In this document: positions 30,112-35,974 of the stretch, piece after piece
Numbering within the stretch: the stretch's first letter is position 1
Layout of the letters: each line of letters begins with the position of its first letter
Source: Candidatus Poribacteria bacterium
Lineage (GTDB): Bacteria > Poribacteria > WGA-4E > PCPOR2b
Length of the DNA: 64,000 bases
Assembly (NCBI GenBank): GCA_022822785.1
Contig: JAJEAL010000070.1
Coordinates: 1 to 64,000 of the forward strand
Direction of reading: 5' to 3'
The notes under the pieces: model-generated
Database searches by the model: none
The model's input: only the letters and a program-made list of their open reading frames with translations
Told to the model about the DNA's origin: nothing
Translations under genes and position numbers: made by a program

Positions 30112-30870
30112 CTAGCGATAATCTTCTGCTGCGTCTTCTGGTTCGTATCCAAGCACCTCGCGAGCATGTGAGATATCACGGTATGCCCACCTGTTATTGG
30201 ACACAACATCGAAAATATCGAACTTCACACTATCGGGCGCTTCAATGGACTTCTCGACTATCTGTGCGATGTCGCGTTGGCTGCACCACACAGAGAAACC
30301 GCGAGGCGGTGTAGGACGGTTTTCGCGGGTAACCGCACCTATACGTAGGCAGATTATCGAGATATCGTAACTGTCCGTAAAATGTCGCGCCAACGCCTCG
30401 CCGAAAACTTTGGTGCACCCGTATAAACCTGCCGGCCGTGTCAGCGATTTGTGGTCTACTTTTTCCCACGTGTCGGGGACCTCATCGTAACGCCCCTGGG
30501 TGATTGCGTTGTAGGGAAACTCTCGATCCCAGTTACTGACAGCTGACCCGCTGCTCGCGAAGACAACCCGCTTAACGCCTGCCTCCCGTGATGCCTCAAA
30601 GACATTGTAGCAGCCCACAATATTTCCACTTAACAACTCTTCCCACGTAACGCCCGGTTGTGCCATCGCCGCTAGATGCACAACGACATCAATCCCCTCA
30701 AAAGCAGGTCGGACAGCCTCCAGATCCACGATATCGGCTTGATGACATTCCACTCCGGGGACAGGTCGGCGATTTAGTGCACTCAAGATATACTTTCTCT
30801 CCAAACGCTCTCGTACGAGACCGCCAATTAATCCGCTCATTCCGGTGACGAGTACCTTTTTTTCTGCCAC
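30112..30870 (-). CDS. NAD-dependent epimerase/dehydratase, uronate-dehydrogenase-like
   Basis: A 252-residue extended short-chain dehydrogenase. The cofactor motif is 'VLVTGMSGLIGGLVRERL', and the catalytic Tyr-xxx-Lys is in 'LYGCTKVFGEALARHF', with the Ser in 'FASSGSAVSN'. The segment 'PPRGFSVWCSQRDIAQIVEKSI' is close to bacterial uronate dehydrogenases, which oxidise glucuronate or galacturonate to aldaric lactones. The start is GTG at 30870, with GGAGG at good spacing. It is a single gene on the minus strand. If it is a uronate dehydrogenase, the nearby lactonase and enolase-family dehydratase would continue that route. This is inference. Confidence 0.82.
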   Translation of the reverse strand: MAEKKVLVTGMSGLIGGLVRERLERKYILSALNRRPVPGVECHQADIVDLEAVRPAFEGIDVVVHLAAMAQPGVTWEELLSGNIVGCYNVFEASREAGVKRVVFASSGSAVSNWDREFPYNAITQGRYDEVPDTWEKVDHKSLTRPAGLYGCTKVFGEALARHFTDSYDISIICLRIGAVTRENRPTPPRGFSVWCSQRDIAQIVEKSIEAPDSVKFDIFDVVSNNRWAYRDISHAREVLGYEPEDAAEDYR

Positions 30871-32400: not shown

Positions 32401-35400
32401 TTAAAATGTTTGCGTCAAGCGGACCAGAGACAGACGCCCAATGTCCGGCGCACCAATAAACGGCTGATATTCAGTGCCCAGCAGATTTTGGACTGTCAAT
32501 GACAGACGAGGTCTCGTTGCAAACGGTATTTCATAACCCGCATTCAGGTCGATAGTTAAATACGATTCGACCTCACCGATGTAAACCCCTGAATTAACAG
32601 GGAACCCAGCCACATAATTCAACCGTACCCCCGCTCCCACGCCTAGATTGGTGTTATTGTACTGCACATTTGCTCCGAACTTATTCTTAGGCGCGTTGAG
32701 GGCGATGCTCCGGAGACCTGTCTCGAATAGGTCCTCGCTGACGAAGGAATAATTCCCACCAAAACTCAAACTCGGATTGAGGTAATAGGTTAAACTAGCA
32801 TCAAATCCGTTGAGTGAGATGTCACCGTAGTTGCGATAGGTCAACAAAACCGCGTTTGGATCCGATGCCTCATCGGGTGTTACCGTGCCAAACGGGATGA
32901 AAGCGGGACCGTTGTTCTCGGTACCAGCCACAAAGAGTTGTGTTAACTCGTCAATAGCCGAACCGTTGCCATTACCTCCCTGAGCCGGATCGTCAAACGC
33001 CAACAACGCCTGGTTAAGGGTGGCATTTTGGGGATCGCTCAACACCGTTGTGAAGTGCTGTGTGAGGAACGCACCTAACGTCTGCGCGTCTAGGAACACA
33101 TTCGGAGTTTCAACGACCAGAGGACCGACAAAGTCCCTAATTCTCGTGTGGTAGATATCGGCGGAAAACGCCAACTTATTCATGAGAATGCCTTTGTAAC
33201 CGAACTCATACGTTTGGGTAATCGTCGGTTTAAGCGGGTCAACGCTGGTGGCATCTTCGATATCCGCAAACTCGCCTGTTTCCGGGTTAAGGGTGCGTAA
33301 GACATTTTTTACCCCATCTACCTGCTCAGGGACAAGACTAGCAAATCCAGTAAGAATTTCTTCCTCTGTAGATGCTGCAAGAGACGCTGCAAGACCTTGT
33401 ACAATTTCTGGTGGCAGCGCTTGAAGCACTTGCGGCACTATCTGCTGAAGCTGTTCAGGCGGCAACGCAGCTATCGCCCCCGGTTGAAGCAATGGAGCAA
33501 ACTCTGGCGGAAGCCCCTGCAGCGCTTGCGGCGGCAGCGTTGAGAGTGCTTGGGTTGCCACTCCTTGAAGTGTCTCCGGCGGCAGCGTCGCAACAACCTG
33601 AGGCAATGCCTGTGGTGAGAAGGATTGCTGTATAGTTTGCTTCACTGCGGCTTCAAAAACCGGCTGCACACCAGCCATGACAGCTCCTCGCCCGATGCCC
33701 CACATGAGATTGGTGGCAAGAGGGTCATCAAGAGGAAGATGCGCGTCTGCTGGCAGCTCTGCCACTGGTGAGAAGGGGGACCGAAACAGCGGACGTCCAG
33801 CTGCATCCCTTTTGAAGGTAAATCCCGTTTCACTGCCAGGCCCCTGCGCGCGTACATCAATCTTAGGATTAAACCCTAAAATTGGTTCAAAACTGCTGCC
33901 CAACCCATAGGCGTCTGGAACTGCTAGCCTGTCAAGGAACAGGTTGCTAGCTGTCGGAGTACTGAACGCCCGGTTATAGGTCAACCTCAAGTTATGGTCG
34001 TCGTTCGGTTGGAAAGCAAGTGCTGCACGTGGTGAGAGGACTATACTATCGAGGTGATTATGATCGTCAGCTCGCCCGGCGAGGATGAGCTTTAACTGCG
34101 AAGTAAGCTCAGTTTCCGACTGCACATACACACCGATCTCATTGATGTTGTCGTTGTCCTCATTGCGGCCATTAATTGTGCCCTCAGTGTCGGGACGGGT
34201 TAGTAACAGATCGAGACCGTAGGTGAAGCGTTGACGCTCTCCGAGGCCGTAACCGTGTTGAATCTGCCCAACGTACAGGTCGGACTTATCTACGACTGGC
34301 AAGCCATCCCGCAGGGTATAGGTATCGGCGGCATCACTACTATTCACAAAGAATTGCGCGAAAAGGTCTTTGTAAATGAATCGCGTTTGGCCGTACATGT
34401 AACGCCAGTCTTTGGCTTGACCGGCTCCGAGACCCGTCAGTTCCGTACCGGTGGTTTGCGTGCCGCCGAAGGCAAAAATCGCCATCAGATCATCGTTGGG
34501 CTTATAATCCACACGAGCTTCGCCGCCCGCTCTGTATGTATCAAAGATCGGTTCACCTGGGCCTTCAAGGTCTTCTGTTGACCGTCCCTCTTCCCAATCG
34601 TTTCCTCGGAAACCGTTGACTGAAAGCTTATAGCCGAGCGTTTCATTGATAACGCCGGCATGTCGAAGTGATCCGAGCATCATACTCCGCTCACCGCCGC
34701 CGATGCTGATCGTCGTTCCTTGAGAGTCAAACGGCGAACGGGTGAGGATGTGCATGACGCCGTTGGCGCTATTTGGACCGTAGAGCGCCGAACCCGGTCC
34801 CGAGACCACCTCAATCTGTTCAATATCCTCGCTTGAGGTCGGAATGAGGGTATAGGCATTGAGCCGCAGCGAAGGAACCCGAGCGATGCGATTGTCAACG
34901 AGCGCCAGAAGTGAGCCCGAAAACACGTTGTTGAAACCGCGGACGACAACATGCGACGACCCCAATCCAGTGTTCACAACATCTACTCCACGCACCGATT
35001 TCAAGTGTTCGGTAACACTTGGGGCAACACGGTCTTGGATTTGTGACGCATTAACAAGGGCGACTGATGCCGGAGCTTCAAGGACCTTTTCCCGACGCCG
35101 TGATGCCGTAACGGAAACTTGATCCAGTTCAATAACCTCTGAGGAAAGAGCAATTTCTACCGATGTGGTTCCGTCTGCGGCTAGCTCGATGTTTTCCATA
35201 ACCTTATCGGCATAACCGGAGGCAGAGGCGGTAATCGTGTAATCATCAGCGGATAAATCTCCAATTTCAATCATGCCGGAGGCATCACTGACACCTTCAG
35301 CGGAAGCACCAGCTTGTGACATGACGGTGATAGAAGCACCGTTTAGTTTGGCACCGGTTTGGGCATCTGTCACGGTAACATTTAAGGTGGCAGCTTGCGT

Positions 35401-35463
35401 TGACACCGCAGCGACACACAAAACAGCAACCAAGACGAATAACCAGACCTTCAATTGTTTCAT
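32401..35463 (-). CDS. TonB-dependent receptor with N-terminal regulatory domain and an LPPE-repeat insert
   Basis: About 1020 residues when started at ATG 35463 (MKQLKVWLFVLVAVLCVA), which has GGGGAGG at spacing 7. The signal peptide (to 'VSTQA') is followed by a carboxypeptidase-regulatory-like domain near 28-115 ('DAQTGAKLNGASITVM'). The plug carries 'VTASRRREKVLEAPASVALV' and 'EVVSGPGSALYGPNSANGVM'. The barrel ends in an aromatic residue (RLTQTF). Residues about 613-698 are an unusual repeat-rich insert, with 'LPPETLQ', 'LPPQALQ', 'LPPEQLQ' and 'LPPEIVQ'. The gene has its own strong promoter and a long leader. It probably imports a glycan or metal complex. Confidence 0.9.
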   Translation of the reverse strand: MKQLKVWLFVLVAVLCVAAVSTQAATLNVTVTDAQTGAKLNGASITVMSQAGASAEGVSDASGMIEIGDLSADDYTITASASGYADKVMENIELAADGTTSVEIALSSEVIELDQVSVTASRRREKVLEAPASVALVNASQIQDRVAPSVTEHLKSVRGVDVVNTGLGSSHVVVRGFNNVFSGSLLALVDNRIARVPSLRLNAYTLIPTSSEDIEQIEVVSGPGSALYGPNSANGVMHILTRSPFDSQGTTISIGGGERSMMLGSLRHAGVINETLGYKLSVNGFRGNDWEEGRSTEDLEGPGEPIFDTYRAGGEARVDYKPNDDLMAIFAFGGTQTTGTELTGLGAGQAKDWRYMYGQTRFIYKDLFAQFFVNSSDAADTYTLRDGLPVVDKSDLYVGQIQHGYGLGERQRFTYGLDLLLTRPDTEGTINGRNEDNDNINEIGVYVQSETELTSQLKLILAGRADDHNHLDSIVLSPRAALAFQPNDDHNLRLTYNRAFSTPTASNLFLDRLAVPDAYGLGSSFEPILGFNPKIDVRAQGPGSETGFTFKRDAAGRPLFRSPFSPVAELPADAHLPLDDPLATNLMWGIGRGAVMAGVQPVFEAAVKQTIQQSFSPQALPQVVATLPPETLQGVATQALSTLPPQALQGLPPEFAPLLQPGAIAALPPEQLQQIVPQVLQALPPEIVQGLAASLAASTEEEILTGFASLVPEQVDGVKNVLRTLNPETGEFADIEDATSVDPLKPTITQTYEFGYKGILMNKLAFSADIYHTRIRDFVGPLVVETPNVFLDAQTLGAFLTQHFTTVLSDPQNATLNQALLAFDDPAQGGNGNGSAIDELTQLFVAGTENNGPAFIPFGTVTPDEASDPNAVLLTYRNYGDISLNGFDASLTYYLNPSLSFGGNYSFVSEDLFETGLRSIALNAPKNKFGANVQYNNTNLGVGAGVRLNYVAGFPVNSGVYIGEVESYLTIDLNAGYEIPFATRPRLSLTVQNLLGTEYQPFIGAPDIGRLSLVRLTQTF

Positions 35464-35631
35464 TACATAACCTCCCCTATTTGGGTAGTGTGGTAGCTGC
35501 CTCAATGAGCAGCAAATCACAATCAACGGATTAGCATCATTAATAGATAAATACCTAATTTTCCGGTTTCCACTAACGTGGCACACCGGGGCACACCTAC
35601 TATACACACAATATACAGGTGTATTTCTTAT
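35464..35631 (-). other. Long 5' leader of the TonB receptor mRNA
   Basis: The strong promoter at 35632-35661 predicts a leader of about 160 bases. It contains a hairpin GCTGC...GCAGC (35493-35510) and an inverted pair ACACCT (35593-35598) / AGGTGT (35617-35622), which may be an operator. I looked for cobalamin-riboswitch features and did not find them. Confidence 0.4.
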
Positions 35632-35661
35632 ATTATACACAATATATCTACTATTTGACAA
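35632..35661 (-). promoter_or_regulatory. Sigma70-type promoter of the TonB receptor gene
   Basis: On the minus strand, TTGTCA (35661-35656) and a perfect TATAAT (35637-35632) are separated by 18 bases. They lie about 170 bases upstream of the receptor start. Confidence 0.65.
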
Positions 35662-35974
35662 CATTTAGAGGGATTCATCAGGTTGGAATGAGCATTTTTT
35701 TCTAAAAAAATGTCACTTAGCTTTCGTTTATCAATCTTGAAAGCAAAAGTGCCCGGTTTCGACGCGGAAACGGTTTTAACCATACCTACACAGCAGACAA
35801 CATTTTTTTATAAACCAGGAAGGGGTAATCATTTTGCGACATGTCGCTCCGCCACGGTTTTGGCGCGACCTTGGAACCTTGGGGGTATCAGCTTCACCTT
35901 CAATCCAACTAGGTTCCGAGGCACCTCGACCTAACCCGAAAAACCTAGGGTAATATAGCCGCAATTTGAGCCGT
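35662..35974. other. Gap between the TonB receptor promoter and the DUF58 gene
   Basis: A 313-base AT-rich stretch upstream of the TonB receptor promoter and downstream of the DUF58 stop. The short frames seen here have no supported start site and no recognisable family. A convincing terminator for the DUF58 cluster was not found. Confidence 0.3.

Follow-up and report, generated by a model that had tools for sequence, protein, structure and literature searches.

A TonB-dependent receptor with an extended loop

The stretch of DNA analyzed here (the window) comprises 64,000 nucleotides from the genome of a sponge-dwelling Candidatus Poribacteria bacterium, and its minus strand carries the gene of a TonB-dependent receptor (32401..35463) with a signal peptide, a CarboxypepD_reg domain, a plug and a beta-barrel, delimited by Pfam matches and by the evidence for the start codon. 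The corresponding ORF, to which all residue numbers below refer, covers window positions 32401-35664 (minus strand, 1087 aa) and is open throughout. Its true start is probably Met68 (window 35463), because the motif GGGGAGG lies just upstream, a signal-peptide-like stretch follows, and the receptor frames of two genus members (L055 and L065) do not open until 31 and 47 codons after the beginning of the match. The protein possesses the Pfam domains PF13620, PF07715 and PF00593, all above their gathering scores; the plug model PF07715 reaches 61.3 bits (cut-off 23.9) and the beta-barrel model PF00593 107.9 bits (cut-off 27).

The receptor does not belong to the SusC/RagA family as defined by TIGR04056 (56.6 bits; curated cut-off 368.25), and none of the best 25 of 30 matching NCBIfam models, which would have named a siderophore, haem or B12 receptor family, reaches its cut-off; the CirA model, for instance, scores 58.6 (cut-off 745). 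A riboswitch as a clue to the ligand was likewise not found, as no Rfam family reaches its gathering score within the 64-kb window. By sequence, the best solved relative is Cir, the colicin I receptor of Escherichia coli (E 4.5e-14). Cir, BtuB and PfeA rank first in a Foldseek search with the full-length receptor model, in which Cir is also the closest by fold; this model is poor (24 sequences, mean pLDDT 53.3, pTM 0.40).

The alignment with Cir extends to residues ~575-577, which correspond to Cir residues 402-404, and a long loop starts after residue ~577. A count of strands by eye, based on the sequence and on the DSSP assignment of the weak full-length model (mean pLDDT as above), gives 22 strands, which would fit a barrel with 11 extracellular loops, and places the insert in loop 7. 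We accordingly delimit an extended extracellular loop 7 at residues ~577-812 (33229..33936, minus strand) and, by the same count and by the conserved columns of alignment A1 on either side, an extracellular loop 8 at residues ~850-942 (32839..33117, minus strand). The segment VDPLKPTITQTYEFGYKG beyond loop 7 resembles the usual NPdLKPE..ElGyk strand of such receptors. A weak profile alignment with PirA suggests an exit from loop 7 at NPKIDVRAQG instead of VDPLKP; this alternative, which is not preferred, would add two strands and would still place the insert on the extracellular side. In Cir, loop 7 contains Arg436 and loop 8 contains Arg490 (PMC12511343). Together with the alignment of residue ~577 to Cir residues 402-404, this supports the suggestion of an earlier note on this DNA that the insert could form an extracellular loop, and its location in loop 7 is well supported by sequence comparison.

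The octad-repeat segment

The insert had been described in that note as a series of LPP-type repeats at 33370-33625 within the receptor, at residues 613-698 when numbered from Met68, i.e. residues 680-765 of the ORF. This description holds: the segment, for which a period test and the helices of the loop model define the boundaries 33367..33627 (minus strand, residues 680-766), contains five LPP units, four of which have the form LPPxx[LV]Q. In the strict sense, LPPxxLQ describes three of the units; the other two are LPPEIVQ and LPPEFAP. All five occur within residues 676-800 and none in the remaining protein; not one of 20000 shuffles of the segment matched this number.

The repeat is best read in units of eight residues. 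The five strongest periods of the segment are 16, 40, 24, 32 and 8 residues, and the highest z value was reached in none of 5000 shuffles; the rest of the receptor gives no period signal, its highest value being reached by 2520 of 5000 shuffles. The octads run LPPETLQG VATQALST LPPQALQG LPPEFAPL LQPGAIAA and continue with LPPEQLQQ IVPQVLQA LPPEIVQG LAASLAAS, so that the spacers between the LPP units (VATQALST, LQPGAIAA, IVPQVLQA and LAASLAAS) are octads as well. Among three long loops from other lineages, the strongest period is 8 in L011 (9 of 5000 shuffles), 12 in L014 (0 of 5000) and 32 in L034 (110 of 5000). Among these three, 8 is the top period only in L011, so that a strict octad characterizes the window's genus and the group of L011 and is less clear in the sequences outside these two.

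Searches for similar segments returned few matches. In the window's genome, the octad segment finds only itself at E values up to 1; no copy was detected in phage or plasmid records, nor was the whole receptor found in plasmid records at E 1e-30. The loop alone has five weak matches in Pfam, the best with an E value of 0.08 and none reaching the cut-off. In a literature search, mostly of papers outside subscription journals, none of the titles and abstract openings listed dealt with an octad loop of this kind. Among solved chains, the loop sequence matches only HeliScrew4 (PDB 9zem), with an E value of 9.5e-8, or of 3.5e-4 when the profile of alignment A1 is used. The match depends on the order of residues: its score is 117, and none of 1000 shuffled versions of the segment scored above 76. 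Judged by its name and sequence, HeliScrew4 is apparently a designed protein. Both sequences consist of eight-residue repeats, and the periods of 8, 16, 24, 32 and 40 residues make the loop HeliScrew-like at the sequence level; yet HeliScrew4 stands alone and is built from units of the type LTPEQIAA, whereas the loop sits in a receptor and has LPPExLQx units.

Predicted fold of the loop

When the loop is modelled by itself (201 residues, from an alignment of 24 sequences), the result is of moderate quality, with a mean pLDDT of 69.3 and a pTM of 0.56. The model is helical over its residues 19-146, and ten-residue blocks within 31-150 have pLDDT values of 75-90. After a helix of 34 residues (H19-52), the octad part contributes six helices, each 4-14 residues long (H58-63, H67-79, H83-87, H91-97, H101-104 and H107-120), and a closing helix of 24 residues (H123-146) follows; five of the helices, including the closing one, have the second of the two LPP prolines as their first residue. 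In the window, the first long helix corresponds to residues ~648-681 (33622..33723, minus strand) and the closing helix to residues ~752-775 (33340..33411, minus strand). A helical fold of the octad loop is thus well supported by modelling. Fold searches with the loop model gave no match at an E value of 0.001 or better (best Foldseek E 0.68, best VIA Z 5.4), and 9zem, which the searched library may lack, is not among the matches listed.

The sequences of both outer helices, of the closing one in its later part, also occur in short-loop orthologues, namely in 13 short-loop rows of the 24-row alignment A2. For this reason, the octads appear, by sequence, to be inserted between the two outer helices. 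In short orthologues, the match to the octad profile is confined to its end, beginning at position 75-82 and reaching position 109. (Alignments A1 and A2 were made without L078; A3 contains long loops only.)

Occurrence and stability among relatives

Homologs of the whole receptor were found in 56 of 84 genomes of the phylum at 1e-50, and matches to the octad-loop profile in 49 of 84 at 0.001. Full-length profile matches, with E values of 1e-20 or better, are limited to 19 of the 84 genomes; in 30 genomes the match is partial and covers only the last 28-35 positions, i.e. the closing helix. By coordinates, all 50 profile matches fall in or at the orthologous receptor. For loop lengths and for the tree, we used 46 near-complete orthologues, that is, 55 orthologue ORFs minus seven fragments shorter than 880 aa (two each from L039, L051 and L052, one from L050) and two duplicates (L053 and L054). 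Fourteen of the 46 have a long loop and 32 a short one: the distance between the anchors is 185 aa in six (the members of the window's genus, including the window), 165-170 aa in eight and 98-111 aa in 32; the excluded fragment L050 (G007) has just 68 aa. On a phylogeny from which the loop was excluded, the other family shows long-loop and short-loop receptors interspersed. The earlier note asked whether the insert might be a normal loop of all orthologues; a loop is indeed present in the orthologues, but the full octad profile occurs in only 19 of 84 genomes.

Two further observations were made in this dataset. L046 and L047 (genomes G012 and G009, both of another family) each contain two adjacent copies of the receptor gene, all with short loops. 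The receptor frame is broken in L039 (within the loop), in L051 (just beside it) and in L052 (elsewhere); no common tandem repeat is visible by eye at these breaks, and pseudogenes and sequencing errors are both possible.

Within the window's genus, the octad loop has an identical length in all six members, with one genome per species. Repeats at the DNA level are weak. The longest pair in the segment measures 26 nt at 77% identity; a shorter pair of 12 nt at 92%, located at 33370-33393, is the sole array reported by Tandem Repeats Finder (2.1 copies). Indels between long-loop lineages amount to 3-4 residues, about one helical turn, rather than to whole octads. The median dN/dS of the octad loop in the genus is 0.11 (0.04-0.21; 15 pairs, six members) and that of the plug and barrel 0.13 (15 pairs, six members); the initial, non-repetitive portion of the loop is the least constrained, at 0.21. 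With a mean dS of ~0.6, these are species-level comparisons. The low values in this genus give no sign of an arms race or of rapid diversification. Taken together, the octad segment looks like a maintained domain, neither hypervariable nor switching.

Mosaic receptor genes in a related genus

Evidence of exchange comes from relatives, and for the window's own gene we mark only the corresponding stretch, residues ~650-900 (32965..33717, minus strand), as deduced from sliding identity, trees and a segment test. A related genus has five long alleles (L011, L012, L058, L064 and L066), a group defined by loop length after the identity scan. Over their 10 pairs, DNA identity is 95.4-98.0% in the loop, 81.6-91.5% upstream and 85.2-95.7% downstream, the latter range including the remainder of the exchanged block. 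The mean identity of the 10 pairs is 79% at residue 640 and climbs to 94% at residue 650, which adjoins the conserved motif TNVMW; past residue ~900, in loop 8, it drops to 87-92%. (The windowed identity table covers five of the 10 pairs; the region identities and the mean scan cover all 10.) L011 and the short-loop L022 are 85-97% identical up to residue ~600, 66-80% from ~601 to ~912 in the scorable windows, and 88-92% thereafter. The outcome of the segment test on L011 varies with the second parent taken beside L022: it recovers residues 596-902 with L066 (z 16.7, against at most 4.5 in 200 permutations) and residues 577-939 with L064 (z 15.7; permutation maximum 3.9).

The phylogenies agree with this pattern. 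Block and flank trees were computed from 26 of the 49 rows of the identity comparison (23 of one genus and three of the outgroup, of which L041 was flagged as long and oddly composed). The tree of the block, computed from 534 shared columns, unites the five long alleles in one clade (100/100), a grouping that the flanks reject with a p-AU of 5.5e-146; the block in turn rejects the placement of L011 with L022 (p-AU 1.2e-7). The flank tree joins L022, which has a short loop, with all long alleles except L066 (85/96), which stands apart. The exchange may accordingly have gone either way: the long block was acquired by the kind of L011, or it was replaced by a short one in L022.

L011 and L012 are, in addition, 92-98% identical over residues ~149-346 in the plug region and 68-83% over ~369-640, and the block that they share extends to residue ~960. 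In view of this second mosaic stretch, what all five alleles have in common is the loop 7/8 block, but it is not the sole piece exchanged. An upstream ORF of the PfkB cluster (see below) is common to L058, L064, L066 and to short-loop loci such as L067 and L069, which fits an exchange at one locus. Single misassemblies are possible in these metagenome assemblies; as a cause of the mosaic they are unlikely, because five records agree. Receptors of the related genus thus seem, from their sequences, to have exchanged loop 7 and part of loop 8 by homologous recombination.

Possible role of the insert

Loops 7 and 8 of Cir are its longest, and the binding of microcin V or colicin Ia makes them swing open (PMC12511343). 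The receptor of the window differs from Cir in a loop 7 of ~235 residues that carries the octad segment and in a CarboxypepD_reg domain before the plug. We tentatively favour the view, to which we give slightly less than an even chance, that the insert enlarges the loop 7/8 gate by a helical element and helps to set what the receptor admits; both the role as a cap and the influence on the choice of ligand are inferred. According to this model, the LPPExLQx-like repeats would add six short to medium helices between two longer ones, and these would probably pack into a compact cap. The cap would most likely lie over the mouth of the barrel, because loops 7 and 8 form the mobile gate of Cir, and might there help to decide which ligand, or which toxin or phage mimicking a ligand, enters. 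Such an addition to loop 7 should affect access to the binding site, and an exchange of the loop 7 cap jointly with part of loop 8 would keep contacting parts of the gate together. The recognition surface proposed in the earlier note is plausible in this respect: recombination of the loop 7/8 block in another genus fits it, while the strong purifying selection in the window's genus gives no hint of rapid diversification.

A further-reaching proposal, which we regard as rather unlikely, is that octad cap and part of loop 8 form a portable module that moves between different receptors of Poribacteria and re-sets admission. If so, the nutrient, bacteriocin and phage admitted could be reset while most of the barrel stays unchanged, and a natural octad helical domain would serve as a recognition part at the surface.

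Other explanations do not involve the gate. The octad segment could be a docking site for a partner protein; candidates would be a surface lipoprotein and proteins from the host or from neighbouring cells. A compact helical element at the surface that is conserved within the genus would suit protein contact, and no observation speaks directly against it. No obvious partner occurs among the few neighbouring genes given family searches, and we consider this reading doubtful. Alternatively, the octads may be neutral or weakly useful filler in a tolerant loop that changes its length by small duplications and deletions. The patchy distribution of loop length on the tree would agree with this, as would the faster divergence of the loop relative to its flanks between distant long-loop lineages (41.4% versus 69.9% identity for L001 and L014). 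Yet filler is hard to reconcile with a dN/dS of ~0.11 and a constant length in all six genus members, nor would it explain why, in another genus, receptors with divergent backbones carry nearly identical long loops; it is unlikely in our judgement.

Two possibilities raised in the earlier note carry little weight. Its position in a surface loop would be appropriate for a repeat that switches the surface by phase or copy-number variation, but near-identical tandem units are absent from its diverged DNA, close relatives show no difference in copy number, and the indels between lineages do not comprise whole octads, so that switching is very improbable. Least credible of all is an artefact of the gene model or the assembly. 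The related genomes are metagenome assemblies and a few relatives have broken frames; the frame in the window, however, is open, and the full octad profile recurs in 19 of 84 genomes, always within the orthologous receptor.

Variation of loops by recombination is already known in TonB-dependent receptors. PMC3068627 describes recombination and variable extracellular loops for HmbR, the haemoglobin receptor of Neisseria meningitidis, which resembles the present case as a TonB-dependent receptor with both features. There, the variable regions are located in loops 2, 3 and 4 and contain positively selected codons; here, the loop 7/8 block is concerned, with a helical repeat segment and a low dN/dS in the window's genus. 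The present case is set apart by the octad helical segment and by its sharing as part of a loop 7/8 block. On the reading as a gate extension, an enlarged and exchanged loop 7/8 gate would offer a ready test, in an uncultivated symbiont phylum, of which part of a receptor sets its specificity, and the octad loop would provide a naturally occurring parallel to HeliScrew4, apparently a designed protein of octads.

Gene neighbourhood

Among 25 neighbourhoods, several of which end at contig ends, 16 contain an ORF cluster upstream of the receptor whose member in L067 is a PfkB sugar kinase; the cluster beyond it, represented in L067 by a Gfo/Idh/MocA oxidoreductase, occurs in 13 of the 25. Both clusters lie upstream of the receptor at L067:2934-5982 and at homologous places among L058-L078. 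They give a hint of sugar uptake by the receptor in other lineages, which remains a hint because in the window's genus the genes upstream of the receptor are of the DUF58 and VWA kinds and do not include these clusters. In the window, a gene at 30112-30870 (minus strand) encodes an NAD-dependent epimerase/dehydrogenase that is closest to the Azf glucose-6-phosphate dehydrogenase model, with a score of 167.8 bits, which is below the cut-off of 400, and a PhyH dioxygenase gene adjoins it.
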